Shown here in pieces: positions 1 to 61,809 of a stretch of DNA of 64,000 nucleotides. The notes below the pieces were generated by a model. That model made no database searches and was not told the origin of the DNA. It saw only the letters and a list, made by a program, of their open reading frames with translations. The DNA comes from Knoellia sp. S7-12 (GTDB lineage: Bacteria > Actinomycetota > Actinomycetes > Actinomycetales > Dermatophilaceae): positions 1,798,001 to 1,862,000 of the forward strand of contig NZ_CP155449.1 in NCBI RefSeq assembly GCF_040518285.1, written 5' to 3'. Each line of letters starts with the position of its first letter. Within the stretch, counting starts at the first letter, position 1. A program made the position numbers and the translations under genes.

Positions 1-551
1 ACGTTCTCACCAGTGACCGAGCGGACGACGTCAGGTCCGGTGACGAAGATCCGCCCGTCCGGAGCGAGGATGACGATGTCGGTCAGGGCGGGACCATAGG
101 CCGCGCCGCCGGCTGCCGCGCCGATGACGACCGAGATCTGGGGGATCTTGCCCGACGCCCGGGTCATGATCGCGAAGACCAAACCCACGGCGTGCAGGCT
201 CACGACACCCTCGGGAAGGCGTGCGCCTCCGGAGTGCCAAATGCCGACGACGGGTATGCCGTCCTCAAGCGCTCGCTCGTAGGCAGCCACGACGACCTTG
301 CAACCGGCGATGCCCATGGCGCCGCCCATGATGGTGGCGTCGGAGCAGAAGGCCACCGCACGCACGCCCTGGCAGGTGCCGACGGCGGCGAGCATGCCCG
401 AGTCGTCCTCGGGGGTGATCAGCTCGACCGAGCCGTCGTCGAAGTACGCCTCGAGCCGCAGCCGCGGGTTGCGCGGGTCGGTGGCCCGGTCGGGCTTGGG
501 CTTCGTCGCAGCGGACGCGGTTGCTGAGGACTCGTTGGGCTGGCGCGACAT
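1..551 (-). CDS. accD: Acyl-CoA carboxylase carboxyltransferase (beta) subunit, N-terminal part
   Basis: Carboxyltransferase subunit that moves CO2 from biotin to acetyl-CoA or propionyl-CoA, supplying malonyl-CoA (or methylmalonyl-CoA) to the adjacent fab genes. About 183 residues are visible and the C-terminus lies beyond position 1. The reading frame from ATG at 551 shows the crotonase-like core, including GIWHSGGARLPEG and IGAAAGGAAYGPALTD, the Gly-rich oxyanion region of the carboxyltransferase family. The start overlaps the fabF stop codon (ATGA), so it is translationally coupled as last visible gene of the fab operon, as accD6 follows kasB in mycobacteria. The exact acyl-CoA preference cannot be read from the fragment. 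Confidence 0.9.
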   Translation of the reverse strand, partial: MSRQPNESSATASAATKPKPDRATDPRNPRLRLEAYFDDGSVELITPEDDSGMLAAVGTCQGVRAVAFCSDATIMGGAMGIAGCKVVVAAYERALEDGIPVVGIWHSGGARLPEGVVSLHAVGLVFAIMTRASGKIPQISVVIGAAAGGAAYGPALTDIVILAPDGRIFVTGPDVVRSVTGEN

Positions 552-1795
552 CAGGCGCTCTTCACGGTGAGGGCCACGTTGTGACCGCCGAAGCCGAACG
601 AGTTGTTGAGCGCCGCGATGTCGCCGTCGGGAAGCGTGCGGTGCTCGCCTCGAACGACGTCGAGTGGGATCGCCGGGTCGAGGTTCTCGATGTTGATCGT
701 CGCGGGGGCGATGCGGTGGTGCACGGAGAGGATGGTGAACAGCGCCTCGAGTGCACCGGCGGCACCGAGGAGGTGCCCGGTCATCGACTTCGTGCCGCTG
801 ACGCACATGCCGTCGGTGGCGTCGCCGAAGGCCCGGCGGATGGCCTTGGCCTCGGCGATGTCACCCACCGGGGTCGACGTCGCGTGCGCGTTGATGTGGA
901 CGATGTCCTTGGCGGTCAGCCCGGCGCGCGCGACGGCTTCCTTCATGGCGCGAGAGGCCCCGGCACCCTCGGGATCGGGCGCGGTGATGTGGTGGGCGTC
1001 GGACGACATCCCGGCAGCCGAGAGCTCGGCATAGATCCGGGCGCCGCGGGCCTTGGCGTGCTCCTCGGATTCGAGGACGATGACGGCGGCACCCTCGCCC
1101 ATGACGAAGCCGTCACGGTCGGTGTCATAGGGGCGTGAGGCGTGCGTCGGGTCGTCGTTGCGGGTCGACAGTGCCTGCATCTGGGTGAAGCCAGCGAAGG
1201 GCAGCGGGTGGATCGCGGCCTCGGTGCCACCGGCGACGACGATGTCCGCGCGGCCGAGGCGGATCTGGTCCATGGCAAGGGCCATCGACTCAGCGCCGGA
1301 TGCGCAGGCTGAGACGGCCGTGTGGGCGCCGGCGCGGGCGCCGAGCGCGAGTGAGACATTGCCGCTGCTCGTGTTGGGCATGAGCATCGGGACGGCGAGC
1401 GGGAAGACGCGACGCACGCCCTTCTCCCGCAGGTTGTCCCACTGGTCGAGGAGGGTGTGGACGCCACCGATGCCGGTGCCGATCGCGACCATGAAGCGCT
1501 CGGGGTCGACCTCGGGTGAACCGGCGTCGGCCCAGGCCTCTCGCGAGGCCACCATGGCGTACTGGGCGCTCGGGTCCATCCGGCGGCACTCGACCTTGGT
1601 GAGCACCTCCTCGGGGGACGTGTGGATCGAGGCGGCAAAGGTGACGGGCAGTTCGTACTTCTCCACCCACTCCTGGGCCAGGGTGCGGGCACCCGACGTG
1701 CCGGCGAGGATCGCTTCCCACGTCTGGGTGATCGTCCCGCCAAGCGGGGTGGTTGCTCCAAGACCCGTGACGACGACGCGACGTTCGGTGCTCAT
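551..1795 (-). CDS. fabF: 3-oxoacyl-ACP synthase II (KAS II)
   Basis: Condensing enzyme of type II fatty-acid synthesis, joining malonyl-ACP to the growing acyl chain in the cytoplasm. The 414-residue product has the full Cys-His-His triad: Cys164 in VSACASGAES, His304 in NAHATSTPVGD and His341 in KSMTGHLLGAAG, at normal family length. The reading frame opens further upstream, but the ATG at 1795 is chosen because MSTERRVVVTGLG is the usual N-terminus and an AAGGAG ribosome site lies just before it. It sits between acpP and accD in a single minus-strand operon. Confidence 0.97.
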   Translation of the reverse strand: MSTERRVVVTGLGATTPLGGTITQTWEAILAGTSGARTLAQEWVEKYELPVTFAASIHTSPEEVLTKVECRRMDPSAQYAMVASREAWADAGSPEVDPERFMVAIGTGIGGVHTLLDQWDNLREKGVRRVFPLAVPMLMPNTSSGNVSLALGARAGAHTAVSACASGAESMALAMDQIRLGRADIVVAGGTEAAIHPLPFAGFTQMQALSTRNDDPTHASRPYDTDRDGFVMGEGAAVIVLESEEHAKARGARIYAELSAAGMSSDAHHITAPDPEGAGASRAMKEAVARAGLTAKDIVHINAHATSTPVGDIAEAKAIRRAFGDATDGMCVSGTKSMTGHLLGAAGALEALFTILSVHHRIAPATINIENLDPAIPLDVVRGEHRTLPDGDIAALNNSFGFGGHNVALTVKSA

Positions 1796-1874
1796 GGCGA
1801 TGACTCCTTGACGTGGGGTGGTGTCCCGGCGCCGCCCCCACATCGTGAGGACGGCGCCGACGGAACAGCTGAGA

Positions 1875-2123
1875 TCAGCTCTGGCTGGACTTGATGAACG
1901 TGACGGCGTCGCCGACGGTGCGGAGGTTCTTGACCTCGTCGTCGGGGATGCGCACGCCGAACTTCTCCTCGGCGTTGACGACGATCGTCATCATCGACAG
2001 CGAGTCAATGTCGAGGTCGTCGGTGAACGCCTTGTCACTCTGGACGGTCTCGGGGTCGAGTCCGGTCTCCTCGTTGACGATCTCTGCGAGACCCGCGAGG
2101 ATCTCCTGCTCGCTCTGAGCCAT
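1875..2123 (-). CDS. acpP: Acyl carrier protein
   Basis: Carries growing acyl chains on a phosphopantetheine arm for FabD, FabH and FabF. The 82-residue acidic protein has the attachment motif DIDSLSMMTI, whose Ser takes the prosthetic group, within the usual four-helix ACP pattern. The ATG at 2123 is preceded by AAGGAG with good spacing. It lies between fabH and fabF, the order known from Streptomyces (fabD-fabH-acpP-fabF), with an 80-base gap to fabF. Confidence 0.97.
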   Translation of the reverse strand: MAQSEQEILAGLAEIVNEETGLDPETVQSDKAFTDDLDIDSLSMMTIVVNAEEKFGVRIPDDEVKNLRTVGDAVTFIKSSQS

Positions 2124-2232
2124 GTCCTTGCTCCTTCATGGTTCGGTCCGCCGGGTGCGGACGCTCTGGGGGTGGTGCGGGGTGGTGCTGGTGGTGCGGT
2201 GGTCCGTGATGACCCGCGGACCGCGGGAGTCT

Positions 2233-3234
2233 CTATGGCAGAACGACGACCTGCGCGGCATACACGAGTCCTGCGCCGAAGCCGATCTGGAGGGCCAAAC
2301 CACCGCGAGGGGCGAGGCCCTCGCGCAGCAGACGCTCGGTCGCGAGGGGCACCGAGGCGGCAGACGTGTTGGCCGAATCGACGATGTCGCGGGCCACCGC
2401 GACGTGATCGGGGATCTTGAGCTGCTTGCACATCGCGTCGACGATGCGAACGTTGGCCTGGTGGGGGATGAACGCATCGAGCTGGTCGACCGTGACACCG
2501 GCGGCATCAAGGGCCCTTTGCGCCGCGGGCGCCATGCCCCAGATGGCCCAGCGGAAGACGCTCTGGCCCTTCATCCCGATCGTCGGCCAGTCGAGGCCCT
2601 TGTCCCGCATCTCGACCCAGCTGTCGTTCTGGGCGATGACATCCCACTTGTCGCCCTCTGAACCCCAGACCGTCGGCCCGATCGCGGGCGTCTCGGACGG
2701 CGACACGATCGCAGCGCCGGCACCGTCACCGAAGATGAAGGCCGTGCCGCGATCGGTCGAGCTCGTGAAGTCGGAGAGTCGCTCGACACCGACGACGAGG
2801 ACGTTGCGGGCGCTGCCGCCGCGGACCATGTCGTGAGCCAGGGCGATGCCGTGGCAATAGCCCGCACAGGCCGCAGAGATGTCGAAGGCGGCCGGTGAGT
2901 TCATGCCCATGAGGTGCGCGAGCGCCGGTGCGGCTGCGGGAGTTTGGTAGGGGTGGGTGATCGTGGCGAGGATGACCGCATCGATGTCGGTTGCTGCAAG
3001 ACCGGCCATCTCCAGGGCGTCCCGTGACGCGGCCTCGGACATCTCGATGACGCTCTCGCCGTCACCGGCGCGGTAGCGGCTCTTGATGCCCGAACGTTCC
3101 TGGATCCACTCGTCCGAGGAGTCGATCGCTTCGACGATCTCGGAGTTGAGGACGAGGCGACGAGGCCGGTAGGCGCCGATCCCTGAGATGCGGGTGTGTG
3201 CGGCGCCAGTGGTGGAGTTGATGAGGGCGGCCAT
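2233..3234 (-). CDS. fabH: 3-oxoacyl-ACP synthase III (KAS III)
   Basis: Starts fatty-acid synthesis by condensing an acyl-CoA primer with malonyl-ACP; in actinobacteria the primers are commonly branched-chain. The 333-residue product has the Cys-His-Asn triad: Cys123 in DISAACAGYCHG, His258 in FIPHQANVRIV and Asn289 in DSANTSAASV. It starts 6 bases after the fabD stop, so the two are co-transcribed and probably coupled. Length and motifs are ordinary; primer preference cannot be told from sequence alone. Confidence 0.97.
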   Translation of the reverse strand: MAALINSTTGAAHTRISGIGAYRPRRLVLNSEIVEAIDSSDEWIQERSGIKSRYRAGDGESVIEMSEAASRDALEMAGLAATDIDAVILATITHPYQTPAAAPALAHLMGMNSPAAFDISAACAGYCHGIALAHDMVRGGSARNVLVVGVERLSDFTSSTDRGTAFIFGDGAGAAIVSPSETPAIGPTVWGSEGDKWDVIAQNDSWVEMRDKGLDWPTIGMKGQSVFRWAIWGMAPAAQRALDAAGVTVDQLDAFIPHQANVRIVDAMCKQLKIPDHVAVARDIVDSANTSAASVPLATERLLREGLAPRGGLALQIGFGAGLVYAAQVVVLP

Positions 3235-3240
3235 GCTGGC

Positions 3241-4419: not shown

Positions 4420-4487
4420 CTCTTCAGAGTGGCCGTCACCGGGCCAGAGAGGTGCACCCGGCGGAGACGATTCTCGGGCCAGAGATC

Positions 4488-4502: not shown

Positions 4503-5712
4503 ACTCGGTCGAGGCGGCGCCGGTCGTACGGGGGATGCGACCTGACGGCTCGGGTGCTACTCGTCCGTATGCCAGCGCGAGGCGCACCGTCTGTGCGTCG
4601 TGGGGTTCGGTGAGGTCGTAGCCGATCGTGTCGGCGATCTTGCCGAGCCGGTATCGCACGGTGTTGGTGTGGACGAAGAGGACCCGCGCCGTGCCCTCGA
4701 GGCCGAGCCCGCCATCGAGGTAGGCCGCCGCGGTCTCGAGCAGGTTGCCGCCGCCACTCGCTGACAGTGGCGCATATACACGGGACACGAGGGCTGCTCG
4801 CGCCGGAAGGTCTCCAAGGAGTGCTCGCTCTGCCAGCAGGTCGTCGCTGAGGACGGGGCGTGGTGCGGTCGGCCACGCCGGCGCCGCGGTGTGGCCCGAG
4901 AGCGCGGCCCGCGCACTGCGCCCTGCGGCATACAGGTGCGGGACAACGGGACCCACGACGATCGGGCCCTCTCCGAAGTGTTCGCCCAGGTGCGACGCAG
5001 TCGTCAGGGCATCGGTGACTCGGCCAACGATGCTGACGATGCGCCGGCCGTGGATCGCGACGAGCACCTCGACGTCGTGACGCTTGGCGGCCCGGTGCAG
5101 CTGGTCCATCACCTGTGCCGTGCCTTCGCCGGGGGTGGATCCGACGATCACGCACACGTCGGTGGTCGTGCCCCATCCCAACGCCGACGCTCGTGACTGC
5201 ATGGAGTCATCGGCCTCGCCGCGGATGACGGCGTCGACGACGAGGGCCTCGAGGCGCGCATCCCAGGCGCCGCGGGCCTCGGCCGCATGGGCATAGACCT
5301 CGGCGACGGAGAAGGCGATCTCGCGGCTGTAGCGCAGCACGGCCTCGCGCACCTTGGTCTCGTCACCTCGTGCGGCCAGGCCGGCCGACTCCCGCTCGAC
5401 GACGTCGACGACGGTGCGCATGAGATCAAGGGTCTGGCCGAGGCTGATCGAGCGGGTCAGCTCACGCGGTGCCGTGCCGAAGACGTCCGCGGTGACGTGG
5501 GTGTGGTCCTGGCTGCCACTGAACCACTCGATGAACGACTTGATGCCGGCCTGGGCGATGAGCCCGACCCACGAGCGCTCCTCGGGGGGCAGCGCGCGAT
5601 ACCACTCGTGGTCGCTCTCCATCTGTTGCACCGCGGCCGCGCCAAGGTCACCGGCGGTGCGTTCGACCCGGCGTCGTGTCGCTGCCGAAGGACGCGTTCT
5701 CGAGGTGGCCAC
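4498..5712 (-). CDS. fasR: PucR-family transcriptional regulator of fatty-acid synthesis (FasR-like)
   Basis: A 404-residue regulator whose C-terminal 70 residues carry the PucR-type helix-turn-helix, seen as LETAAAYLDGGLGLEGTAR followed by VHTNTVRYRLGKI. The N-terminal and middle parts form the long sensory region of this family. Its place directly upstream of fabD-fabH-acpP-fabF matches the Streptomyces FasR arrangement, where this protein activates the fab operon; the function here rests on that context. The start is GTG at 5712, with a TAGACT -10 box only 6 bases upstream, so the mRNA is probably leaderless. Confidence 0.85.
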   Translation of the reverse strand: MATSRTRPSAATRRRVERTAGDLGAAAVQQMESDHEWYRALPPEERSWVGLIAQAGIKSFIEWFSGSQDHTHVTADVFGTAPRELTRSISLGQTLDLMRTVVDVVERESAGLAARGDETKVREAVLRYSREIAFSVAEVYAHAAEARGAWDARLEALVVDAVIRGEADDSMQSRASALGWGTTTDVCVIVGSTPGEGTAQVMDQLHRAAKRHDVEVLVAIHGRRIVSIVGRVTDALTTASHLGEHFGEGPIVVGPVVPHLYAAGRSARAALSGHTAAPAWPTAPRPVLSDDLLAERALLGDLPARAALVSRVYAPLSASGGGNLLETAAAYLDGGLGLEGTARVLFVHTNTVRYRLGKIADTIGYDLTEPHDAQTVRLALAYGRVAPEPSGRIPRTTGAASTEL

Positions 5713-5718: not shown

Positions 5719-5756
5719 AGTCTATTTGTATGCCGAGCACAACCACACGGCATACA
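5719..5756 (-). promoter_or_regulatory. fasR promoter with inverted GTATGCCG pair
   Basis: On the minus strand a TAGACT -10 box (5719-5724) ends 6 bases before the fasR GTG. Directly upstream, 5727-5756, TGTATGCCG and its exact reverse complement CGGCATACA face each other across 12 bases, covering where a -35 element would sit. The repeat is also downstream of the small membrane-protein gene, so it may act as terminator, operator, or both. Confidence 0.5.
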
Positions 5757-7557: not shown

Positions 7558-7639
7558 CGGGTATGCCGGCGGGGACAGGTGTCGGAGGTTGGTCACCCTG
7601 CGTCCACCTTCTCGACAGGCGGTGTGACCGGCTCCGCCC

Positions 7640-8854: not shown

Positions 8855-9808
8855 ATGAAGCAGACACGCATTCCGGCGATCGAACTGACCGCCCTCACCA
8901 AGTCCTTCCCGAGCCGCAGCGGCGCGGTCCGGGCCGTGCGTGGCATCGACCTCACCATCACCCAGGGTGAGGTCGTTGCCATTCTCGGACCCAACGGTGC
9001 CGGCAAGACGACCACCCTCGACGTCGTGCTCGGACTCACCGAACCCACGAGCGGCGACGCGCGCGTCTTCGGTTCTCACCCACGCGATGCGGTGCGCGAC
9101 GGTCGGGTCAGCGCGGTCCTCCAGACCGGGGGCCTCCTGCGCGACCTGACCGTGCGCGAGACGGTTCGGATGATCGCTTCGACGTATGCCGTCCACGCAC
9201 CTGTCGATGACGTCATCGCCCGTGCTGACCTCGCCGCCGTCGAGGACCGCAAGGTGTCGAAGTGCTCGGGCGGTGAGCAGCAACGTCTGCGCTTCGCCCT
9301 GGCCCTGCTGCCCGATCCGGAGTTGCTCATCCTGGACGAGCCGACCGCGGGCATGGATGTCTCGGCTCGGCGCACCTTCTGGGCCGTCATGCACGCCGAG
9401 GCCGCTGCCGGCCGCACCATCCTCTTTGCGACGCACTACCTCGAAGAGGCCGACGCCTTTGCTGACCGGATCGTCCTCGTCGCTCGGGGGTGCGTCGTCG
9501 CGGACGGGCCGACGAGCGACATTCGCGCTCGGGCAACCGGTCGCGCCGTGACGGCCCGTGTGGACACCGACGCCGTTGCGCAGACGGTCGACGCCCTGCG
9601 CGAGCTCGACGTGGTGCGGGACGTCAGGGTCGAGGGTGACCGACTCACGATCACCTCGACCGACTCCGACGTCGTGGCACGCGCACTCCTCACGCGGCTG
9701 GGTGCCCGCGAGCTCGAGATCACCACCGGCTCACTCGAATCCGCCTTCATCGCCCTCACCGAGGACCCGGAAGCACACAACACGACCGAACGGGAGACCG
9801 CCGCATGA
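8855..9808 (+). CDS. ABC transporter ATP-binding protein
   Basis: Energises export through the membrane partner encoded next. The 317-residue product has Walker A GPNGAGKTT (about 45-53), the signature CSGGEQQR, Walker B LLILDEPTAGMD and the H-loop ATHYLEEADAFADR; the C-terminal 90 residues are the extension common in drug/antibiotic ABC-2 exporters. Its stop overlaps the permease start (ATGA). GGAGG sits almost against the ATG, too close for ideal initiation, so the message may be leaderless. The downstream kinase and regulator suggest that transport is induced by a membrane or drug signal. Confidence 0.93.
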   Translation: MKQTRIPAIELTALTKSFPSRSGAVRAVRGIDLTITQGEVVAILGPNGAGKTTTLDVVLGLTEPTSGDARVFGSHPRDAVRDGRVSAVLQTGGLLRDLTVRETVRMIASTYAVHAPVDDVIARADLAAVEDRKVSKCSGGEQQRLRFALALLPDPELLILDEPTAGMDVSARRTFWAVMHAEAAAGRTILFATHYLEEADAFADRIVLVARGCVVADGPTSDIRARATGRAVTARVDTDAVAQTVDALRELDVVRDVRVEGDRLTITSTDSDVVARALLTRLGARELEITTGSLESAFIALTEDPEAHNTTERETAA

Positions 9809-10674
9809 GCACCGTGACCACGAACGCGACGACCAGCCAGCCGACCTCGACCACCTCCACAAACCCCAGGTTGTCCGAACGATCCGGGCGCGACGGCGCA
9901 CGACGAAGCGGAGGCATCACTACGGCATACCTCGGCCTGGAAATGAAGCGCGTCACCCGCGACCTGGTGACGATGTTCTTCGTCGCCGGACTGCCAGCAT
10001 TCTTCTTCCTGCTCTTCGGTGCATCGGCCGGCTATTCCGCCGAGGAGGCGGGCAACGGCAATGTCGCGATGTACGTGATGATCTCGATGGCCGCCTACGG
10101 AGCGGTGACCGCGACCGTCGGTATCGGCGGGATGGCCGCTGTGGAGCGGATGCAGGGCTGGGGTCGCCAGCTCGGACTCACGCCCCTGCGTGATGGCAGC
10201 TATGTCGCGATGAAGGCCATCGTGGCGCTCGCCATCGCGATCATCCCCATCACTCTGGTCTACGTTCTGGGTCTCTTCACGGGCTCGCAGGGCACGCTCA
10301 TGGTGTGGCTCGCAAGCGCCGCCATCCTCATCGCCGGTGCCGTGATGTTCTCGCTCTATGGGTTGATCTTCGGGCTGGCGTTCCGCAGTGAGGCAGCGGT
10401 CAGCGCCGCGTCGGGTTCGCTCGTGGTCCTCGGCTTCCTCGGCAACATCTTCTTTCCGCTGAGCGGCTGGCTGCTCGACGTCGCGCGCTTCACTCCCCTC
10501 TATGGATACGTCCAGCTGGCGCGCTACCCGCTCACCGAGGGCATGGTCATGGACACCGAAGGCAACATGTCGCACGAAGCACTGTGGATGCCGCTCGCTA
10601 ACGTGGCCGTGTGGACAGTGATCTTGGCGATAACCGCAACCTGGCTGGTGCGACGCAGCCGCGGCCGCCAGTGA
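9805..10674 (+). CDS. ABC-2 type transporter permease
   Basis: Membrane subunit of the exporter. The 289-residue protein has a polar N-terminal 45 residues followed by about six hydrophobic segments, for example LVTMFFVAGLPAFFFLLFGA, AIVALAIAIIPITLVYVLGL and LVVLGFLGNIFFPLSGWLL. The NIFFPLSGWL element before the last loop is typical of ABC-2 (DrrB-like) permeases. Four-base overlap with the ATPase gene and GTGA overlap with the histidine kinase gene place all four proteins in one operon. The exported compound is unknown. Confidence 0.9.
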   Translation: MSTVTTNATTSQPTSTTSTNPRLSERSGRDGARRSGGITTAYLGLEMKRVTRDLVTMFFVAGLPAFFFLLFGASAGYSAEEAGNGNVAMYVMISMAAYGAVTATVGIGGMAAVERMQGWGRQLGLTPLRDGSYVAMKAIVALAIAIIPITLVYVLGLFTGSQGTLMVWLASAAILIAGAVMFSLYGLIFGLAFRSEAAVSAASGSLVVLGFLGNIFFPLSGWLLDVARFTPLYGYVQLARYPLTEGMVMDTEGNMSHEALWMPLANVAVWTVILAITATWLVRRSRGRQ

Positions 10675-11753
10675 ACACAACCCCGACGCAGGCCCACCCG
10701 TGGCAGCGCTACGGGTGGATCATGGGTGGGGTCTGGCTGGTCTTCCTGGCCTTCCCGATCGCAGGTGCCGTCGACAGCGGCGAGAGCCAATTGCGGATCA
10801 TTGGTTCGCTCGTTCTCTTTGCGACGTTCGCCGCGATCTACATCCACGGATTCATCTCGATGGCACGAGGACTCACCGAGCGCGCGGTGATGCGCAACGG
10901 CGCTGCTCACCTGCTCGCCCTGGTCGCCGTCGTCCTCGCGATCTACCTCCTGGTGGGCGCACCGTCCGCAGGCGGTGGCCCCTACCTCGTCTCCCTGGCG
11001 ATGTTCGTGCTTCCGCTGTGGGCGGCGGTGGGTGTCACGATCCTCGTCATCATGGGGACGCTGGTCATCACGATCCAGGCCGATGCACTGGCCGACACCT
11101 GGTACCTCACCGGCATCGTCCTCCTCGTCGCTGTCGCCACAGGCACAGTGCGGTTCATCGAGCGTCGCAGCATGATCCACGACGAGCTGGCAGCAGAACT
11201 CACCGTCGCCACGGAGCGCGACCGGGTGGCCCGCGACGTGCACGACGTCATCGGCCACACGTTGACGGCAATGAGCCTCAAGTCCGATGTCGCCGAGCGT
11301 CTGATCACCACGGATCCCGAGCGCGCCCGCCGCGAGATCGCCGAGGTCGGGGTCCTGAGCAGGCAGGCGCTTGCTGAGGTCCGGGCGGCGGTCGGCGGTT
11401 TGCGCACCGCGAGCCTTGGTGACGAGATCGCCTCTGCCGAGCGGGTCCTCGCTTCAGCGGGTATTGCAGCGGAGATGCCGACGGACCTCGCCGTCGTCGA
11501 TCCGCGACACCGCGCCGTCCTGGCCTGGGTGCTGCGCGAAGCCGTCACCAACGTTGTTCGGCACAGCAATGCCTCGGTATGCCGTGTGGTCCTGGGTGCG
11601 TCGACGCTCAGCGTCGAGGACGACGGCCGGGGTCCGTCAGGTCTGCGGGAGGGCAACGGGCTGCGCGGGGTGCGCGAACGCGTCGACATGGCCGGGGGAG
11701 TCGTGCAGATCAGCGACGCAGCCCCGGGGACCCGTCTGCTGGTGACGCTGTGA
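10671..11753 (+). CDS. Sensor histidine kinase, DesK/NarX-like (HisKA_3)
   Basis: Membrane sensor of a two-component system. With the GTG start at 10671, which overlaps the permease stop as GTGA, it is 360 residues. About five hydrophobic segments fill residues 15-160, then the HisKA_3 dimerisation segment TERDRVARDVHDVIGHTLT with phospho-acceptor His near residue 191, and a HATPase with VLREAVTNVVRHSNA and EDDGRGPSG. An upstream ATG in the same frame lies inside the permease gene and is less likely. The many-helix sensor without an extracellular domain resembles DesK, which senses membrane state; that role is inference. Confidence 0.92.
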   Translation: MNTTPTQAHPWQRYGWIMGGVWLVFLAFPIAGAVDSGESQLRIIGSLVLFATFAAIYIHGFISMARGLTERAVMRNGAAHLLALVAVVLAIYLLVGAPSAGGGPYLVSLAMFVLPLWAAVGVTILVIMGTLVITIQADALADTWYLTGIVLLVAVATGTVRFIERRSMIHDELAAELTVATERDRVARDVHDVIGHTLTAMSLKSDVAERLITTDPERARREIAEVGVLSRQALAEVRAAVGGLRTASLGDEIASAERVLASAGIAAEMPTDLAVVDPRHRAVLAWVLREAVTNVVRHSNASVCRVVLGASTLSVEDDGRGPSGLREGNGLRGVRERVDMAGGVVQISDAAPGTRLLVTL

Positions 11754-15851: not shown

Positions 15852-17488
15852 CACAGCCTGATTCGGCTTCTCCGTTGCCGCTGCCGGCACCGTCCTCGGC
15901 GGGTCGTGATCTTGAGCTGAGCGAGTGGCAGCACCTTCACCCTTTGTCGCCCATCGTGCGTGGCGGTGTGGTCGGCGTTGCGATCCTCGGGTATGCCGCG
16001 ACGCAGTTCGTCGACGACCTCTTCCGTGGGATGGGTGGCGGGGACGACGGTGGAAAAGAGGAGGCGGACCAGGGCATTCGCGAGGGTGTCGGGCTGCTGT
16101 TCGACCACTCGCTCATCGCCAGCGCGGTGATCCTGACGGCACTGTTGCTGATCGGCCTCGTCGGCTACTTCTCCTGGCGCTTCGCGAAGTTCCGGGTGGC
16201 TGGCGGGCAGATCGAGTTCCGCAAGGGCTGGCTCTTCCGTGAGCACCGACAGGTCCCCCTCGAGCGGGTCCAGGCGATTGAGATCAGCAGGCCCCTGCTC
16301 GCGCAGCTCACCGGCCTCTCGCAGGTCATCGTGCAGTCCGCAGGCGGCGGAGACTCGCAGCTCAAACTCGCGTTCCTTCGCACTGGCCGTGCCGACGAAG
16401 TGAGGGGCGAGCTGCTCGCCCTTGCGGGTCGTCGCGACGAGGCCCGCCCTGCTCGGAGCGTGGGCGTCGACGACGGAGCCGATACCGAAGACGTATCCGA
16501 CGGCATGGTCGAAGCCCACCGCGCGCCACTCAGCACTGACGAGGGCCGCGAAGTCCTGCGGGTGCCGAACTCCCGCCTCTTTGTCGCCACCATCCTTCAC
16601 GGCGGAACGATCTTCCTCGGGGTCATGGCGCTGCTGACCGGAAGTATCGCGCTCGCGGCGTACGGGTCGAGGTTCGAGGCCCTGACAGGGGCGGCCATTG
16701 CGCTCCCAGCTCTTGGCCCCCTCGCTTTCGGCATCGCAGTCAACCGCATCGGCGAACTGCTCAAGCACGGCAACTTCCGCCTCGCCGAGACCGGAACGTC
16801 GGCGCGGATCCAGCACGGACTCACCGACAAGCGGACGACGACCATCCCGCTCCACCGCATCCAGGCGGTCGGGATGGTGCAGCCGCTCTGGTGGCGGCCG
16901 CTGGGTTGGTGGCGGGTCAAGGTCAACGTCGCCGGCATCGCAAGCGACCCGACCAACAACACAGACAACGAGACGACGGCGCTCCCCGTCGGCACGCTCG
17001 ACCAGGCACTGGACGTTCTCACCCTCCTCGATCCAGCGCTCTCAGAGGCAGACCTGCGCCGGGCCGCGCTCGGTGAGGGCGAGGACGGGGGCTGGACACT
17101 CGTGCCGCCACGGGCGAGACGGTTCGACTGGCTCAGCTGGAGGCGTTCGGGCTTTGCGGTGTCACCACATTCCGTCATGGTCCGAGCAGGACGGTTGTCC
17201 CGCCGCGTCTCGGTCATGCCCCACGCTCGCGTTCAGTCGCTCACCCTGGCGCAGGGGCCGCTCGACCGACGCCTCGATCTTGCGACCGTCACCCTCGTCT
17301 CGACCCCAGGACCGGTGGATGTGGCTGTTCCCCACCTCGACCTGCAGACGGCCACCCGGCTGCTCCGTGACGAGGCGGCACGAGCGCGTGTCGCGCGAGA
17401 ATTCTCACGAAGCGCTTGCACCAGCGACGATGTTCCTAGTCAACTAGTGGCTCGAGTAGTTACTCCAGAAGAATCCGACGAGAGGTAG
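15848..17488 (+). CDS. Multi-PH-domain membrane protein (YdbT-like)
   Basis: The 546-residue partner of the preceding gene, starting at GTG inside its stop codon. Three membrane-flanked PH repeats can be seen: the first near residues 110-180 (GQIEFRKGWLFREHRQVPLERVQ), the second near 310-350 (ARIQHGLTDKRTTTIPLHRI), the third near 430-490 (VMVRAGRLSRRVSVMPHARV). Each has the pattern of an ascending strand followed by a conserved Pro-x-x-Arg-(I/V)-Q turn. Hydrophobic helix pairs separate them. Function is not established in actinobacteria. Confidence 0.85.
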   Translation: MTQPDSASPLPLPAPSSAGRDLELSEWQHLHPLSPIVRGGVVGVAILGYAATQFVDDLFRGMGGGDDGGKEEADQGIREGVGLLFDHSLIASAVILTALLLIGLVGYFSWRFAKFRVAGGQIEFRKGWLFREHRQVPLERVQAIEISRPLLAQLTGLSQVIVQSAGGGDSQLKLAFLRTGRADEVRGELLALAGRRDEARPARSVGVDDGADTEDVSDGMVEAHRAPLSTDEGREVLRVPNSRLFVATILHGGTIFLGVMALLTGSIALAAYGSRFEALTGAAIALPALGPLAFGIAVNRIGELLKHGNFRLAETGTSARIQHGLTDKRTTTIPLHRIQAVGMVQPLWWRPLGWWRVKVNVAGIASDPTNNTDNETTALPVGTLDQALDVLTLLDPALSEADLRRAALGEGEDGGWTLVPPRARRFDWLSWRRSGFAVSPHSVMVRAGRLSRRVSVMPHARVQSLTLAQGPLDRRLDLATVTLVSTPGPVDVAVPHLDLQTATRLLRDEAARARVAREFSRSACTSDDVPSQLVARVVTPEESDER

Positions 17489-20171: not shown

Positions 20172-20582
20172 ATGACCTATGCCGGTGATGTCACTCCGTC
20201 CGAGGCTTTTGCCGCGGTGACCGAGAGCGAGGATGCTGTCCTCGTCGATGTGCGCACGCGCGCAGAGTGGGCCTATGTCGGTGTCCCGCAGGTCGATTCG
20301 CATCGTGCGCCGGTGCTGGTCGAATGGCAGCACTATCCCGACGGTGCTCTCAACGACTCTTTCGTCGACGAGCTCAAGGCTGCCGGCATTGTCGAAGGAA
20401 CCCCCATCTACTTCCTCTGTCGATCGGGTGCGCGGTCGATCTCGGCGGCCGAGGCAGCCACGGCTGCGGGCCTGGGACCGGCATACAACGTTGTTGAAGG
20501 CTTTGAAGGTCCGCACGACGCTGACGGCCACCGCACGGTGGCCGGTTGGAAAGTGGCCGGTCTCCCGTGGAAGCAGGGCTGA
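20172..20582 (+). CDS. Rhodanese-domain protein beside metZ
   Basis: A 136-residue single rhodanese domain with active-site loop YFLCRSGARSI, whose Cys would carry a persulfide, and the N-terminal VLVDVRTRAEW strand. It is followed two bases later by metZ, the same pairing as Rv0390-Rv0391 in Mycobacterium tuberculosis, which suggests sulfur delivery for homocysteine synthesis; that link is inference from context. Confidence 0.9.
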   Translation: MTYAGDVTPSEAFAAVTESEDAVLVDVRTRAEWAYVGVPQVDSHRAPVLVEWQHYPDGALNDSFVDELKAAGIVEGTPIYFLCRSGARSISAAEAATAAGLGPAYNVVEGFEGPHDADGHRTVAGWKVAGLPWKQG

Positions 20583-24845: not shown

Positions 24846-24879
24846 CCCACAAGCCGGCCACACGGCATACCGTGAAGAG

Positions 24880-27522: not shown

Positions 27523-27529
27523 ACGGTGG

Positions 27530-41670: not shown

Positions 41671-41708
41671 GGGCAGACCACTCTGGTGAGCGGGCGGCAT
41701 ACGCCGAA

Positions 41709-49506: not shown

Positions 49507-50234
49507 ACCAGCCGGTCGCGATCGTCACCGGAGCCTCGCGTGGCATCGGTGCGCACCTCGCCGATGCTTTGCAGGACAACGGGTATGCCGTGGAGCGCGG
49601 TTCGCGCTCCACGGCCCCGGTCACGGACCGGGCTGCTGTCGAGGCGTGGGTCGCTGATGTCGTGGCACGCCGAGGACGGATCGACCTGCTCGTCAACAAC
49701 GCCGGGGTCATCGACGCCGAGGTGACGCTGGTCGACAGTGACCCTGATGAGTGGTGGGAGACGGTCGAGACCAACGTGCGTGGTCCCTACCTCATGACTC
49801 GCGCGGTGCTCCCCCACCTTGAGCGCGGTGTGGGCAGGATCGTCAATATCAATTCTGGCGCGGCTTACAAGAACGCTGACAACGCCACGGCCTACAACCT
49901 CAGCAAGGGTGCGCTGGCGCGGCTGACTTCCCAACTCGGTCTCGGCGAGGGCCGCACCGCACTCGTCTTCGACCTGGCGCCCGGTGTCGTGAGGACGGAC
50001 ATGACGGAGTCGATGGTGATGCACCGAGGCCGCACAGAATGGACGTCCCCCAACGAGGTCACCGAGCTGCTGCTCGCGATCGCGGGCGGCGAGCTCGATG
50101 CCTGGAGCGGCCGGATGGTGCGAGCCGGAACCGACACCGTCGAGTCCTTGCAGGCCCAAGCAGCAGCCGGTCTGGGAGAGGGCGATCGGACTCTGGGCCT
50201 CATTGCTTGGGGAGACGACGACCCGCTGGGCTGA
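49503..50234 (+). CDS. Short-chain dehydrogenase/reductase
   Basis: A 243-residue NAD(P)-dependent oxidoreductase with cofactor loop [12 protein letters not shown], catalytic Ser in NINSGAAY and the YNLSK catalytic pair. Its start overlaps the pheT stop, an unusual partner for a synthetase operon. Substrate unknown. Downstream lies the arginine operon promoter. Confidence 0.9.
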
Positions 50235-50280: not shown

Positions 50281-51324
50281 ATGGTGAGCGTCGCAGTTGC
50301 GGGAGCAAGCGGCTATGCCGGAGGCGAAGCACTCCGCTGGCTGTTGCAGCACCCTGAAGTCACGATCGGTTCTCTCACCGCTGGTGGCAACGCAGGCTCA
50401 CGTCTGGGCGGGATCCACCCGCACCTCTTTGGCCTCGCGGACCGTGTGTTCGACGAGACGACCGCGGACGTCCTGGCCGGACACGATGTCGTGCTACTCG
50501 CCCTTCCGCATGGTCACTCAGCTGCGGTGGCCGAGGCTCTCGGCGACGACACAGTGGTCATCGACTGCGGTGCCGACTTCCGCCTGCGCAGCGAGTCTGC
50601 CTGGACCAGCTTCTATGACACCCCGTATGCCGGGTCGTGGGCCTACGGTCTGCCTGAACTTGCGCTGGCGGGTGGCGGTTCGGGCCGCGACGCTCTGTCC
50701 GGTGCCCGTCGCGTTGCTGTTCCGGGGTGCTATCCGACTGCGGTCTCCTTGGCCCTCGCCCCCGGTCTCGCCGCCGGAGTGGTGCAGACCGATGACGTCG
50801 TGATCGTCGCGGCCTCTGGCACCTCCGGTGCAGGCAAGGCGGTCAAGCCGCACCTGCTGGGATCCGAGGTCATGGGTTCCATGTCGCTCTACGGCGTCGG
50901 GGGAGTGCATCGCCACACACCCGAGATCGAGCAGAACCTCGCCGCCGCCGCTGGCTCGCCCGTCACCGTGTCCTTCACCCCGACATTGGCGCCCATGCCT
51001 CGCGGCATCCTGGCCACCTGCACTGCCAAGGTGTCAGCAGGAGTCTCCGCAACGGAGGTTCGCGAGGCCTGGCACGCGGCCTACTCGGGCGAGACGTTCG
51101 TGCACCTCCTCGAGCCCGGCACCTGGCCTGCCACGGCGCAGGTGGTCGGCAGCAACCATGTCACCGTCCAGGTCACGTTCGACGAGCGGGCCGGTCGCGT
51201 GGTCGTGGTCGCGGCGATCGACAACCTCGCCAAGGGAACCGCTGGCGCGGCTGTGCAGTGCCTCAACCTTGCCGTCGGCCTTCCTGAGTCGACCGGCCTT
51301 CTCGGATCGGGGGTGGCGCCGTGA
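50281..51324 (+). CDS. argC: N-acetyl-gamma-glutamyl-phosphate reductase
   Basis: Reduces N-acetylglutamyl phosphate with NADPH. The 347-residue product has the nucleotide loop [16 protein letters not shown], catalytic Cys in [15 protein letters not shown] and the His of [12 protein letters not shown] region. The ATG at 50281 directly follows the operator; another ATG 6 bases upstream is possible. No ribosome site is seen, so translation is probably leaderless. Confidence 0.96.
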
Positions 51325-52895: not shown

Positions 52896-53780
52896 GTGAC
52901 CGGCGCTCTGACCAAGCTCAAGGCGAGCACACTCGTCGAGGCGCTGCCGTGGCTCGAGCGCTTCCGTGGGGCCCTCGTCGTCATCAAGTATGGCGGCAAC
53001 GCCATGATCGACAGTGAGCTCAAGCTCGCCTTCGCCCAGGACATCGCGTTCCTCCGCTATGCCGGATTGCGCCCTGTCGTCGTCCACGGTGGCGGTCCGC
53101 AGATCAAGGCCATGCTCGACCGCCTCGGGCTCGAGAGCGAGTTCAAGGGCGGACTCCGTGTCACCACGCCCGAGGTCATGGACGTCGTGCGCATGGTGCT
53201 CACTGGCCAGGTCGGTCGAGAGCTCGTGGGCCTGCTCAACCAGCACGGCCCTCTCGCCGTCGGCCTGTCCGGCGAGGACGGTGCCCTGTTCGGTGCTCGA
53301 CGCCGAGGCGTCTTCGTTGACGGTGTCGAGGAGGACCTCGGGATGGTCGGCGACGTCGTCTCGGTCAACACCCAAGCGGTCGATGATCTGCTCGACGCCG
53401 GGCGGATCCCGGTCGTCTCGACCATCGCACCCGACCTCGACCACGAGGGTCAGGTGCTCAACGTCAACGCAGACACGGCGGCGGCGGCTCTGGCCGTGGC
53501 GCTCGGGGCACGCAAATTCGTCGTGCTCACTGACGTCGAAGGCGTGTATGCCGCGTGGCCGGACCGGTCCTCACTTCTCTCGACCCTGCCCCTCAGCCAG
53601 GCGCGAGAACTCGTCAAGACCGTCGATGCGGGCATGATCCCCAAGCTTGAGGCCTGCATCCGCGCCGTCGCGGAAGGAGTGCCCCAGGCCCACGTCATCG
53701 ACGGTCGTGAACCGCACTCCCTGCTGCTCGAGGTCTTCACCTCGGACGGCATCGGCACTCTCATCGAGGAGGACGCATGA
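52896..53780 (+). CDS. argB: Acetylglutamate kinase
   Basis: Phosphorylates N-acetylglutamate. The 294-residue amino-acid-kinase-fold protein has [36 protein letters not shown] and [13 protein letters not shown]. It begins at GTG 52896, 10 bases after argJ, with only a distant GAGG as ribosome site. Arg-feedback-sensitive forms have an N-terminal helix, partly present here ([19 protein letters not shown]). Confidence 0.95.
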
Positions 53781-54991
53781 GCACCCACGACAGCAGCGAG
53801 CCGCAGCAGGCGGTCCTTGACCGCTATGCCCACTCGCTCATCACCGTGTTCGGCACTCCGCAGCTCGTCCTCGAGCGCGGTGACGGCGCCTGGGTGTGGG
53901 ACGTCGACGGCAAGCGCTACCTGGACCTCGTCGGAGGGATCGCGGTCAACGCGTTGGGGCACAACCACCCCGCGCTCGTCGCGGCCGTCTCCAAGCAGGT
54001 CGGCGAGATGGCCCACATCTCGAACTTCTACACGTCCCGCGTTCAGGTCGAGCTAGCCGAGCGGATCCTCGAGATCGCCGAGGCGCCTGAAGGCTCGGGT
54101 GTCTTCTTCGCGAACTCCGGGGCCGAGGCCATCGAGGCAGCGATCAAGTTGTCCCGCCGCACCGGGCGCACGGGCATCGTCGCTGCGGAGGGGGCTTTCC
54201 ACGGACGCACGACTGGTGCTCTCGCGCTCACCCACAAGGCGGCCTACAGAGAGCCGTTCGCCCCGCTCATTCCCGACGTGTCACACGTCCCCTTCAACGA
54301 CATCGAGGCATTGCGTGCCGCGGTCACGGCCGACACCGCGGCCGTCGTCCTCGAACCCATCCAGGGTGAGGCGGGAGCGATCGTCGCGGACCCGGCATAC
54401 CTGCAGGCTGCGCGCGAGATCACCACAGCGTCAGGCGCCCTCCTGATCATCGACGAGGTGCAGACCGGCATCGGACGCACCGGTGACTGGTTCGGCTTCC
54501 AGGAGAGCGGGATCGTCCCGGACGCCATCACGCTCGCCAAGGGTCTCGGCGGCGGTTTGCCCATCGGTGCCCTCGTGACGTTCGGGCCCGAGGTCACCGG
54601 GCTGCTCACTGCAGGGCAGCACGGCTCGACCTTCGGTGGCAACCCGCTCGTCGCTGCCGCCGGTCTCAGCGTCCTTGCCACGATCGAGAGCGACGGTTTG
54701 TTGGCCCACGTCACGGCCATGGGGGAGCACCTCGCCGAGGCCGTCGCGAGCCTGATGCACCCCGACATCGAGGGCGTGCGCGGCCGCGGCCTCCTGCGAG
54801 CGATCATGCTGCGCTCGGACCTGTCTGCGGGCATTGTGGCCGCTGCGCGCGAGGCCGGTTTCCTCGTCAACCCCGTGGCGCCCAATGCAATTCGCCTTGT
54901 GCCACCACTGGTCGTCACCCGCGACGAGATGGACCTCTTCGTCGCTGCGCTGCCCGCGCTCATCACCACAGCCAAGGAGTCGACTCCATGA
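53777..54991 (+). CDS. argD: Acetylornithine aminotransferase
   Basis: PLP enzyme making N-acetylornithine. The 404-residue product has the class III motifs [33 protein letters not shown] and the PLP Lys in [14 protein letters not shown]. Overlaps argB and argF by 4 bases. Confidence 0.95.
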
Positions 54992-55944: not shown

Positions 55945-58516
<2,572 letters not shown>

Positions 58517-58539: not shown

Positions 58540-59533
58540 CCTCGGCGCGGATCCGACGCTGCACGTCGTCGGGCGCGTAGCTTGCCTCGACCGCGGTCAC
58601 GGCGAGCTCGCCCAGGCCGTGCTCGTCGAGGCCGAGCAGGTCTGCGGCGATCTCGTACTCACGGTTCAGGGTTGTCCCGAACATCGGCGGGTCGTCGCTG
58701 TTGATCGTGACGACGACACCGGCATCGCGCAGCGCCCGGATCGGGTGATGCTCGAGCCGCTCGACGCAACGTGTCGCGATGTTGGACGTCGGGCAGACCT
58801 CGAGCGGGATGCGCTCTGCGACCAGCCGCTCGATGAGGCGCGGGTCGTCGATGGACCGGATGCCGTGGCCGATGCGCTCGGCTCCGAGAGCGTCGAGCGC
58901 GTCCCACACCGACTGCGCGTCGGTCGACTCTCCGGCGTGGGGGAGCGAGCGCAGCCCCGCAGCTCTGGCGCGGTCGAAATGCGGCTTGAACTGGGGTCGC
59001 GGAACCTCGGGACCACCCAGGCCGAAGCCGATGAGCGACTGCGGACCGTGGTCGAGCGCGTAGCCGAGCGTCGCGTCGGCAGCGGCGATCCCGGCCTCAC
59101 CGGGGATGTCATAGATCCACTGAAGAACGATGCCGTGATCGCGCTCGGCGCAGCGGCGAGCGTCTTCGATGGCCTCTGTGTAGGCCTCGATCGAGATCCC
59201 CATCCGCACGCTCGTGAACGGCGTCATCGTCAGCTCGGCATAGCGAACCTGCTGTGCCGCAAGACCTTCGGCCACCTCGTAGGTGAGCAAGTGGATGTCC
59301 TCGGGTGTGCGCAGGAGCGCGACGACGGCGAGGTAGACGTCGATGAAGTGCGCGAAGTCCGAGAACGTATAGAAGTCGCGCAGCGCCTCGATGCCCTGTG
59401 GCACACCGGCATCAGGGTGTCGCTCAGCCAACCGAGCCACCGTCTCGGGCCGCGCGGACCCGACGTGGTGGACGTGCAACTCTGCCTTCGGCAGTCCCGC
59501 AATGAATTCGGCGTATGCCGTGTGCTCACCCAT
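58517..59533 (-). CDS. add: Adenosine deaminase
   Basis: Converts adenosine to inosine. The 338-residue zinc enzyme has the HxH metal motif in ELHVHHVGSARPE, the His-Ala-Gly-Glu motif LRSLPHAGES, GAERIGHGIRSIDD, and TINSDDPPMFGTTL. The HVHHVGS variant is common in actinobacterial members. The ATG at 59533 follows CAGACT by 7 bases on the minus strand (leaderless); the longer frame is not family-like. Confidence 0.92.
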
Positions 59534-59546: not shown

Positions 59547-60446
59547 TCAGTCGGCGAGTGCCTGGGCGACGGCGCGGGCGCCAAGGGGTGCGAGGTCGTG
59601 GCCGCGGGGAGCATAGAACCAGTCCGCCATGAGTCCTTGGATGGCGGCGAACGCCCGGCCCCAGGACCACGACACGTCGTCGACGTCGAGGACCTGCCGG
59701 AAGCGTTCGCGTCCGGCCCGGTCGAGAACCCACCAAGCAGGGGTGAGGTCCCACGCGGCATACCCCGTCGTCAGGGTGCCGAAGTCCAAGAGTCCGACGA
59801 GCTGGCCATCGCGTACGACCAGGTTGCCCGGGATGAGGTCGGCGTGGAGGAGGACCGGGCCCGGGTCCGGCGTTCCCGCGGCAATCGCGTCGTCGATGAG
59901 GCCGGAGATCGATGTCGGATCGAGAGGGCCCGAGACGGGGTCGGTCCGTTCAGCGAGGCGGTCGGCTCGTTCTGCCAACTGGCCTCCGCGTTGCCCGCGG
60001 GGTAGGTGCTCGGGCGTGACTGTGCTGAGGTCGACGTCGCGGAACGAGGCCACGATCTCAGCCAAGGTGTCAGCCCACGAACTCGGAACAGCTCCCGAGA
60101 GCACACGTGCCGAGGCGTCCTCACCCGTGACCCAGTGGTTGACCGTCCAGATGTGCGGGTACGTATCGGTGGGCTGGCCCACGTGCTCGATGACGGGCAT
60201 CTCGAGAGTGACGCGCTGCCGCAACCGAGGCAACCAGTCGATCTCCTTGCGCAGACCCGCTTCGGCTTCGGCATCGCGGGGGACGCGCACGAGGAGGTCG
60301 TCGCCGAGCCGATAGGTCGTGTGCTCGGTTCCGGACGTGGTCATGGGCCGCAACGGCAGACCCCGCCACTGCTGACACTGGGAGTCCACCAGAGCACGGA
60401 CGTTGTCGAGATCGATGGGGGTCTCGCCCTCGAAGAGTGTCGGCAT
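59547..60446 (-). CDS. Aminoglycoside phosphotransferase-family kinase
   Basis: A 299-residue small-molecule kinase of the APH fold: GTEHTTYRLGDDLLVRVPR near the N-terminus, catalytic loop LLHADLIPGNLVV and metal loop LLDFGTLTTG. Trp-rich C-terminal (DLTPAWWVLDR). Substrate unknown; many such proteins are unrelated to resistance. ATG at 60446 is preferred because TGGGAT lies 6 bases upstream; ATG at 60476 is the alternative. Divergent from tyrS. Confidence 0.85.
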   Translation of the reverse strand: MPTLFEGETPIDLDNVRALVDSQCQQWRGLPLRPMTTSGTEHTTYRLGDDLLVRVPRDAEAEAGLRKEIDWLPRLRQRVTLEMPVIEHVGQPTDTYPHIWTVNHWVTGEDASARVLSGAVPSSWADTLAEIVASFRDVDLSTVTPEHLPRGQRGGQLAERADRLAERTDPVSGPLDPTSISGLIDDAIAAGTPDPGPVLLHADLIPGNLVVRDGQLVGLLDFGTLTTGYAAWDLTPAWWVLDRAGRERFRQVLDVDDVSWSWGRAFAAIQGLMADWFYAPRGHDLAPLGARAVAQALAD

Positions 60447-60497
60447 ACGGCCATCCCACACGTCGACGCGCTGCATCGTCCACCGGGTTCCCCGTGG

Positions 60498-60503
60498 CAG
60501 GCT
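60498..60503 (+). promoter_or_regulatory. Putative -10 box of tyrS
   Basis: CAGGCT ends 7 bases before the GTG at 60511; no Shine-Dalgarno sequence is seen. Confidence 0.5.
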
Positions 60504-60510
60504 GACGCCC

Positions 60511-61770
60511 GTGAACGACATCCTTGCTGAACTGCAGTGGCGCGGCCTTGTCGCCCAGACGACCGACGAGGACGCCCTGCGTGGCGCATTGACGGGCGGA
60601 CCGATCACCGCCTACTGCGGCTTCGACCCGACTGCACCGTCCCTGCACTTCGGCAACCTCGTACAGCTCATCGTCCTGCGCCACCTCCAGCGAGCGGGCC
60701 ACAAGGTCATCTGTCTCGTGGGTGGTTCGACGGGCCTCATCGGGGATCCACGACCCAGTGCCGAGCGGGTGCTCAAGACCAAGGAGCAGACCGCCGAGTG
60801 GGTGGCCGGGATCCAGACGCAGGTCCAGCCCTTCCTCGAATTCGAGGGTGACAACGCCGCCATCATGGTCAACAACCTCGACTGGACGGCGCCATTGTCG
60901 GCGCTGGACTTCCTGCGCGACATCGGGAAGCACTTCCGCGTCAACCAGATGGTCAAGAAGGATGCCGTGGCGGCGCGCCTCAACTCGGACGAGGGCATCT
61001 CCTACACGGAGTTCAGCTATCAGATCCTCCAAGGGCTGGACTTCCTCGAGCTCTACCGGGCGCACGGATGCACGTTGCAGACCGGTGGACAGGACCAGTG
61101 GGGCAACCTCACCGCTGGTTCGGACCTCATCCACAAGGTGGAGGGCGAGTCGGTCCACCTGCTCACGACGCCGCTCGTCACCGACTCCGCCGGCAACAAG
61201 TTCGGCAAGAGCGAGGGCAATGCCGTCTGGTTGTCCGCCGAGATGACGAGCCCCTACGCCTTCTACCAGTACTGGCTCAACGTCGAGGATGCCTCCGTCA
61301 TCAAGCTGGTGCGGATCTTCACCGACCGCACCCAGGACGAGGTTGTCGAGCTCGAACGTCAGGTGACGGAGGAACCGTTCCGTCGGGCGGCCCAGCGCAC
61401 GCTCGCAGCCGACGTCACGACTCTGGTGCACGGGGCTGATGCCACGGCGTCGGTCCAGGCTGCATCCGAAGCACTGTTCGGCAAGGGCGACCTCGCGGCC
61501 CTCGACCTCAGAACTCTCGAGGACGCAACGGCAGAGCTACCCGGCGGTGAGGTCTCTTCGGGGATGACCATGACCGACGCCCTCGTGGCTGTCGGTCTCG
61601 TCGATTCACGCAACGCCGCACGCCGTGCGATCGGGGACGGGGGAGCGTCCGTCAACGGCGAAAAGGTCAGCGATCCCGAGTTCACGCTCGCCGATGAGCA
61701 CTTCCTCCACGGGTCGGTGGCCATCCTTCGCCGAGGGCGCAAGTCCATGGCTGCTGCCCGCAAGGTCTAG
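60511..61770 (+). CDS. tyrS: Tyrosine-tRNA ligase
   Basis: Class I synthetase charging tRNA-Tyr. The 419-residue product has the HIGH-type motif PSLHFGNLVQ, the tyrosine pocket FSYQILQGLDFL, GGQDQWGNLTAG and the KMSKS-type KFGKSEGNAVW; the C-terminal S4-like domain ends in AILRRGRKSMAAARKV. Starts at GTG 60511. Followed by a hairpin terminator and the rRNA operon. Confidence 0.96.
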   Translation: MNDILAELQWRGLVAQTTDEDALRGALTGGPITAYCGFDPTAPSLHFGNLVQLIVLRHLQRAGHKVICLVGGSTGLIGDPRPSAERVLKTKEQTAEWVAGIQTQVQPFLEFEGDNAAIMVNNLDWTAPLSALDFLRDIGKHFRVNQMVKKDAVAARLNSDEGISYTEFSYQILQGLDFLELYRAHGCTLQTGGQDQWGNLTAGSDLIHKVEGESVHLLTTPLVTDSAGNKFGKSEGNAVWLSAEMTSPYAFYQYWLNVEDASVIKLVRIFTDRTQDEVVELERQVTEEPFRRAAQRTLAADVTTLVHGADATASVQAASEALFGKGDLAALDLRTLEDATAELPGGEVSSGMTMTDALVAVGLVDSRNAARRAIGDGGASVNGEKVSDPEFTLADEHFLHGSVAILRRGRKSMAAARKV

Positions 61771-61779
61771 AACCGTTGT

Positions 61780-61809
61780 GGCACAAGGCATTTGGGTATG
61801 CCGTGTGCC
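61780..61809 (+). terminator. Hairpin after tyrS containing a GTATGCCG octamer
   Basis: GGCACA-A-GGCAT, loop TTGGGT, ATGCC-G-TGTGCC: 11 paired bases with a single A/G mismatch mid-stem, 10 bases after the tyrS stop. The right arm carries the octamer. Confidence 0.7.

Follow-up and report, generated by a model that had tools for sequence, protein, structure and literature searches.

DNA uptake sequences (DUS) in the Neisseriaceae are described as present in thousands of copies, with inverted pairs linked to terminators, and as forming dialects that track phylogeny, with two dialects in one genome and none in some relatives (PMC3630211; PMC12616744). For the uptake signal sequence (USS) of the Pasteurellaceae, ~1300 copies are given for H. 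influenzae, with inverted pairs serving as terminators (PMC5217627), together with two dialects and an extended motif that has A/T-rich flanks (PMC12616744). A 2025 paper names these two families as the only ones known to have enriched, specifically bound uptake motifs (PMC12616744). Here we describe an octamer, GTATGCCG, that is scattered over a 64-kb stretch of DNA from Knoellia sp. S7-12 (the window; bases 1,798,001-1,862,000 of a single-contig genome of 4,163,720 bases). The word is conserved, lineage-specific and strand-neutral, is placed in the manner of an uptake sequence, and is nearly absent from a stretch of conjugation genes. We consider it likely, with good confidence, that GTATGCCG is the DNA-uptake sequence of the Knoellia-clade lineage and one of the uptake-sequence dialects of the Dermatophilaceae. 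These putative uptake words are probably read by a Tad/Flp competence pilus.

The window contains 43 copies of GTATGCCG, 24 on the forward strand and 19 on the reverse, which span positions 254 to 61803; 100 dinucleotide shuffles averaged 0.73 copies and never exceeded 3. In the whole genome there are 2805 copies (1406 forward and 1399 reverse), versus 79 (33 + 46) for a control in which GTATGCCG is read backwards. The sequence-only reading of the window had put the octamer at about 43 copies, far above base composition and nearly even in orientation; both points hold, and the over-representation is real and larger than first noted. When 8-mers were counted against a second-order Markov model in a 344-kb sample (14 stretches of 20 kb together with the window), a check which that reading had proposed at genome scale, GTATGCCG ranked first among over-represented words, with 210 copies observed versus 7.1 expected. 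The same reading had held open that Tyr-Ala dipeptide frequency and codon bias might explain the excess. In the 362 genes that a simple gene caller identified in a 394-kb sample (the window plus 17 stretches), there were 171 coding copies of the word, as against 13.3 on average and never more than 25 across 200 synonymous shuffles that left each protein sequence and pooled codon usage unchanged, and codon bias and Tyr-Ala frequency are thus ruled out as the cause. Tyr-Ala dipeptides are slightly common in this sample (302 versus 261 expected), and two Tyr/Ala frames are used by 130 of the 171 coding sites. The pair TAT-GCC occurs 112 times and TAC-GCC 109 times, despite overall counts of 520 for TAT and 1492 for TAC; 78 of the 520 TAT codons lie inside GTATGCCG.

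Across the 394-kb sample, to which the counts in this paragraph refer unless stated otherwise, the word is divided 119/118 between the strands and is 2.7-fold denser in non-coding DNA (1.35 per kb; 62 intergenic and four gene-edge copies) than in genes (0.50 per kb), with spacing that is near exponential (mean 1407, standard deviation 1414). Close intergenic pairs were inverted in all 12 cases and direct in none; at coding or mixed places there were four inverted versus two direct pairs, and across the named word-rich loci 13 inverted and no direct ones. Both close pairs of the window are intergenic and inverted. The pair with arms at 27843..27850 (+) and 27861..27868 (-) has a much stronger fold than shuffled sequence on either strand (hairpin of -29.2 kcal/mol, z -4.16; other strand, z -5.93), and the pair with arms at 5728..5735 (+) and 5748..5755 (-) had no fold advantage over shuffles. 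The earlier description of several inverted pairs at gene ends is therefore reduced to two pairs within the window, one of them folding better than its shuffles, whereas the inverted arrangement itself is borne out by the larger sample. The origin was placed at the contig start because dnaN and recF are there and, with the terminus assumed to be opposite, the ratio of leading to lagging copies was 127:110 (p = 0.30), so that the comparison with replichores, also suggested earlier, revealed no orientation bias. GTATGCCG is non-palindromic, its complement being CGGCATAC. At position +8 after the core T is found in 45% of copies versus 18% of the background, the best extended form of the word being GTATGCCG-T, and most positions between -14 and -5 show an excess of A in the window's genome. 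Other genera share the T preference, and the A-rich flank is most pronounced in Knoellia, as judged from partly orthologous sites. In abundance, inverted pairs, dialects and an A/T-rich flank GTATGCCG is similar to the USS, from which it differs in its unrelated sequence and in its A-rich flank, which is weak and lies 5' of the core.

At ~684-720 kb the genome has conjugation genes, including those for a TraG/TraD-type coupling protein and an M23/transglycosylase protein, along with a third tad ATPase and weak matches to TrbL and to a phage integrase. Two copies of GTATGCCG were identified between 680,934 and 724,000 (41 kb covered, with 2 kb between stretches unseen), as compared to ~27 expected from the 0.66 per kb seen elsewhere in the sample. 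This word-poor foreign stretch, which extends from 680,961 to beyond 724,000 of the contig (G000:C1; end of L067, L068, L019 and L276), also has tad-like genes of its own. Conservation of individual sites was assessed against Janibacter sp. HTCC2649, for which 26 kb aligned at 82% identity. Eighteen of 21 GTATGCCG sites were intact in that relative, and 18 of 24 in the reverse direction, versus 29.5% of 8-mers with an equal number of A/T. Based on the ComEC tree described below and on its word, HTCC2649 (L127) falls in the Knoellia clade, and Knoellia koreensis (L144) groups with Pedococcus; the record names of both look out of date.

A scan of named ComEC loci (the best 80 of 506) recovered Knoellia, Janibacter, Pedococcus, Phycicoccus, Terrabacter, Intrasporangium, Ornithinimicrobium, Serinicoccus and other members of the Dermatophilaceae/Intrasporangiaceae, and the window's genome belongs to the Knoellia clade of this family. 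All nine genomes of its genus carry GTATGCCG in 1971-3277 copies, and numbers across 186 family genomes range from 7 to 4724; by our own classification, about 136 of the 186 are rich in GTATGCCG or another word. No comparable enrichment of GTATGCCG was seen in 362 genomes of 19 other families (part of a 396-genome sample of the order), none of which had more than 180 copies, and of those with ten or more copies none was above ~4 times its own control.

Words other than GTATGCCG were found by screening sampled stretches and then counting candidates in all 186 family genomes. GGATGCCG reached 2099-4480 copies in seven genomes of three genera, the remaining genomes having at most 1336, and GTATGCGG was present in all four genomes of genus g13 at 511-1204 copies (controls 87-107; at most 476 in the rest of the family). 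A third word, CGAAGGGGG, which is unrelated to GTATGCCG, characterizes Janibacter and its neighbours: all 19 genomes of genera g27 and g35 have 797-1939 copies, versus at most 80 in the other 167 family genomes. Two genomes (G044 and G045) carry both GTATGCCG and GGATGCCG. GAAGGGGG was found in nine of nine named Janibacter/Marihabitans loci, HTCC2649 aside, and the Janibacter 8-mer CGAAGGGG (175 copies in 310 kb, strands 85/90) matches GTATGCCG in its anatomy, its close pairs comprising 11 inverted and no direct ones. The word states were mapped on a ComEC tree (FastTree, 107 rows) from which we removed fragmentary or identical ComEC sequences and any named locus shorter than 9 kb. They required 16 changes, as against a mean of 43.4 when shuffled, with none of 200 shuffles as low. 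The Janibacter word formed one clade (support 96), GGATGCCG appeared at two separate places, and among the rows of this tree no word was found for Phycicoccus in the narrow sense. The comparison with related genomes that had been called for thus yielded words that are lineage-specific and congruent with phylogeny.

The pattern of GTATGCCG, GGATGCCG, GTATGCGG and CGAAGGGGG is that of the Neisseriaceae uptake-sequence dialects, as these are set out in PMC3630211. The likeness to the DUS, for which the reader is given as the minor pilin ComP, extends to copy number, inverted pairs, dialects, a two-word genome and word-free relatives. In contrast to the DUS, the Dermatophilaceae word differs in sequence and belongs to another phylum without an outer membrane, with Tad/Flp genes instead of a type IVa pilus, and both its role in uptake and its receptor are putative. 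Furthermore, all DUS dialects share a CTG core, whereas the word of one Dermatophilaceae clade is wholly unrelated.

Several side observations concern possible additional words in the family. Borderline words containing GTAC were noted in G083 (GTACGGCG; L031-L033, L083, L084 and L101), in G089 (GTACGCCG/CGTACGCC) and in Austwickia L195 (GTACGCCG and GTACGTCG), and these are possibly further dialects or codon-pair effects. The word of Phycicoccus G160 was also borderline. In Arsenicicoccus (L173, L175) and in G037, GTATGACG was extra frequent alongside GTATGCCG, possibly as a mixed or degenerate word. Seven genomes of genus g41 (Ornithinimicrobium/Serinicoccus; G105, G112, G118, G119, G122, G123 and G134) had lower GTATGCCG and higher GTATGCGG counts, as if the dialect were shifting. 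Outside the family, a word screen of 16 genomes from 15 families (12-55 kb of coding sequence each; the contigs of four families were too short) produced one clear word, in G205, the remaining words being composition-like. This word, GGATGCCTC, had 1452 copies in G205, versus 5 for its control, and 466 in G236; it was counted 2-552 times in 118 further genomes of the same family, f19 (loci L224, L237 and L242), which at a guess, given the large number of genera and the very small size of some genomes, is Microbacteriaceae.

Turning to the individual copies in the window, the word lies within genes in the sense direction on the forward strand at 9184..9191, 11577..11584, 15991..15998, 19029..19036, 32679..32686, 34486..34493, 37129..37136, 39847..39854, 43812..43819, 47628..47635, 49583..49590, 50625..50632, 53546..53553, 56132..56139 and 58023..58030, and on the reverse strand at 2256..2263, 4926..4933, 22359..22366, 27947..27954, 28607..28614, 59756..59763 and 60441..60448. 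Antisense copies within genes are at 254..261, 22492..22499, 27171..27178 and 59513..59520 on the forward strand and at 20479..20486, 33942..33949, 37242..37249, 44247..44254, 54393..54400 and 58454..58461 on the reverse. Apart from the arms of the two inverted pairs, intergenic copies are at 7561..7568 (+) and 24863..24870 (-), as well as at 9923..9930 (-) and 41695..41702 (-), which are intergenic according to the gene calls used. The copy at 19385..19392 (+) is at the 3' end of a gene, that at 27517..27524 (-) is at the edge of a gene start, and that at 61796..61803 (+) is beyond the last called gene. A second repeat, ACTTATTGC/GCAATAAGT, was present in ten copies in 394 kb and formed the arms of inverted pairs at three places; its sites are 12391-12446 of the window and the loci L017, L022, L025, L028 and L069.

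The family has genes that are compatible with DNA uptake. ComEC was identified in 180 of the 186 genomes, the Flp pilin family DUF4244 in 172, and matches to the TadE profile of the tad-1 locus in 168, and ComEA adjoins ComEC in those sampled loci where ComEA was found. ComEA, ComEC and the tad-1 genes are all present in the window's genome, which has tad genes at three loci (tad-1, tad-2 and a third within the word-poor stretch). Besides TadA-B-C and TadE, the tad-1 locus encodes a 70-residue protein that matched no Pfam family, a weaker TadE match and a Tad/TadG-like protein. Transformation of Micrococcus luteus is reported to need both of its tad clusters (PMC4322843; PMC6370729), and the two clusters and comEA/comEC described for its Flp/Tad transformation (PMC4322843) are gene sets that also occur in the Dermatophilaceae, with the difference that flp is cut off in the window's genome. 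By term matching, "uptake signal" and "sequence-specific" do not occur in PMC8467076, nor "uptake sequence" in PMC4322843. The machinery is compatible with uptake and is no predictor of the word.

A number of observations weigh against an uptake role for GTATGCCG. The left edge of the word-poor stretch falls inside the tad-2 flp pilin gene of the window's genome, which is cut off there, its match to the flp of a sister genome (G006) ending at 680,961, and in the stretches sampled from the window's genome neither the remainder of flp nor the tad-2 TadE and TadG genes were found. The sister genome has flp and the tad-2 genes that follow it; in the window's genome, ~1.4 kb of other genes separate tadC from flp. 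The most straightforward interpretation is an entry of foreign DNA into flp in this strain, and since the pilin gene is cut off, the strain may have lost uptake recently, with its words persisting; this speaks against present-day competence of the strain. The two weak matches that the DUF4244 search returned in this genome could be parts of the split flp. G001, of the same genus, likewise had two weak matches and no strong one, and its flp may be interrupted too.

The distribution of the competence genes is also unhelpful to the uptake interpretation, as ComEC, DUF4244 and the tad-1 TadE are near-universal and hence fail to separate word-rich from word-poor genomes, and they were rejected as switches of the word. 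In 163 genomes at >=90% completeness, with rich and poor labels assigned by genus, the tad-1 TadE was counted in 115 of 118 word-bearing versus 36 of 45 word-poor genomes (Fisher p 0.0005, not corrected for phylogeny), including as TadE-bearing two word-bearing genomes, G002 (5e-8) and G003 (7e-4), whose matches are weak. Three word-bearing genomes at >=90% completeness (G035, G092 and G178) had no match to the tad-1 TadE, nor did the word-bearing but incomplete G043, G174 and G181. In Phycicoccus G160 both tad loci and ComEC are present, but there is no clear word. An apparent pilin loss at both loci of G083 was dropped from consideration, a relocated TadE and an Flp gene being present. In addition, no residue of TadE, TadF or TadG tracked the change from GTATGCCG to GGATGCCG in 23 genomes (four with GGATGCCG), and no ComEA residue did so in 106 rows (three with GGATGCCG); the tad-2 pilin alignment was partly mis-framed and was not used. 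Janibacter-specific changes were identified at three conserved positions of TadF (columns 164, 169 and 171) and at one position of TadE (column 60), and these prove nothing about a receptor since they belong to a single clade. Lastly, because a Gram-positive cell is without an outer membrane, the recognition step must differ from that of Neisseria.

The main rival explanation is that the word is bound inside the cell by a chromosome-wide system, for instance as a Chi-like recombination signal, an FtsK/segregation signal or the site of a nucleoid protein, and co-evolves with its protein. Thousands of well-spaced copies at near-exponential intervals are what such a system would have, conserved sites and lineage-changing words are equally expected from it, and the cut-off flp gene weakens the case for uptake in this particular strain. 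However, Chi and the FtsK orienting polar sequences (KOPS) are abundant genome-wide octamers that are oriented with replication, whereas GTATGCCG, although likewise abundant and scattered, is unoriented, and the absence of replichore bias rules out signals of that kind. An intracellular binder also does not readily explain the greater density outside genes, the inverted pairs or the near-empty conjugation-gene stretch, and a full switch to CGAAGGGGG in one clade would be easier with a non-essential surface receptor. On balance, we regard this rival as unlikely.

We consider it quite improbable that the word is instead a methylation or restriction-modification target with a protective or regulatory role, either epigenetic or akin to the highly iterated palindrome HIP1. 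There is a precedent in HIP1, an abundant palindromic octamer scattered over cyanobacterial genomes, and lineage-specific methyltransferases could give rise to lineage words. Against this, restriction sites are usually avoided rather than enriched, GTATGCCG differs from HIP1 in being non-palindromic, and neither inverted pairs nor a near-empty mobile stretch would be expected from methylation alone. The HIP1-like signal and the protected methylation site were both among the options of the sequence-only reading; the former fits less well for its palindromic model, and the latter does not by itself account for thousands of copies. The notion that the words are by-products of codon-pair preference, terminator hairpins or mutation bias draws on the predominance of two Tyr/Ala frames among coding sites and on the intergenic copies that are hairpin arms, but is largely contradicted already by the synonymous shuffles, by the higher density outside genes and by the other words with the same pattern in related species, and we view it as highly improbable. 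An uptake sequence, the first of the three options offered from the letters of the window, best fits the strand balance, intergenic enrichment, inverted pairs and near-empty conjugative element, with further support from site conservation, lineage-specific words and a family that has ComEA/ComEC and Tad/Flp genes.

If GTATGCCG is an uptake sequence, we propose that it is bound in free DNA by a surface protein belonging either to the Tad/Flp competence pilus or to the ComEA entry step. As a consequence of this binding, DNA of the same lineage would be preferentially taken up, would then pass through ComEC and would be recombined into the chromosome. Since word-bearing alleles would enter more often, recombination would spread the word and keep it in both orientations, with the greatest freedom in intergenic DNA, and inverted pairs would be reused as hairpins. 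A change of receptor would cause the genome to drift to a new word, and the loss of uptake would be followed by slow decay of the word.

Among the matches listed in a search of open PubMed Central literature (titles and starts of abstracts, with subscription journals and preprints outside its scope), there was no description of such a word in Actinobacteria, and no paper there combined Janibacter with "uptake sequence". We think it fairly probable that the Dermatophilaceae, and perhaps family f19 with its GGATGCCTC, have a third independent system of self-DNA recognition, the first in Gram-positives, acting via a Tad/Flp pilus or the ComEA step and using at least four words, of which CGAAGGGGG in Janibacter would fully replace, or stand in for, the usual word and so create mating barriers between genera. 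Given that about 136 of 186 genomes are word-bearing, with switches and losses along the tree, whether biased uptake or selection for mate choice causes a word to spread becomes directly testable. If true, this third case, from monoderm Actinobacteria, would show that bacterial self-recognition has evolved convergently and would predict transformable members among little-studied soil genera, for which geneticists would gain a tag that may raise transformation.

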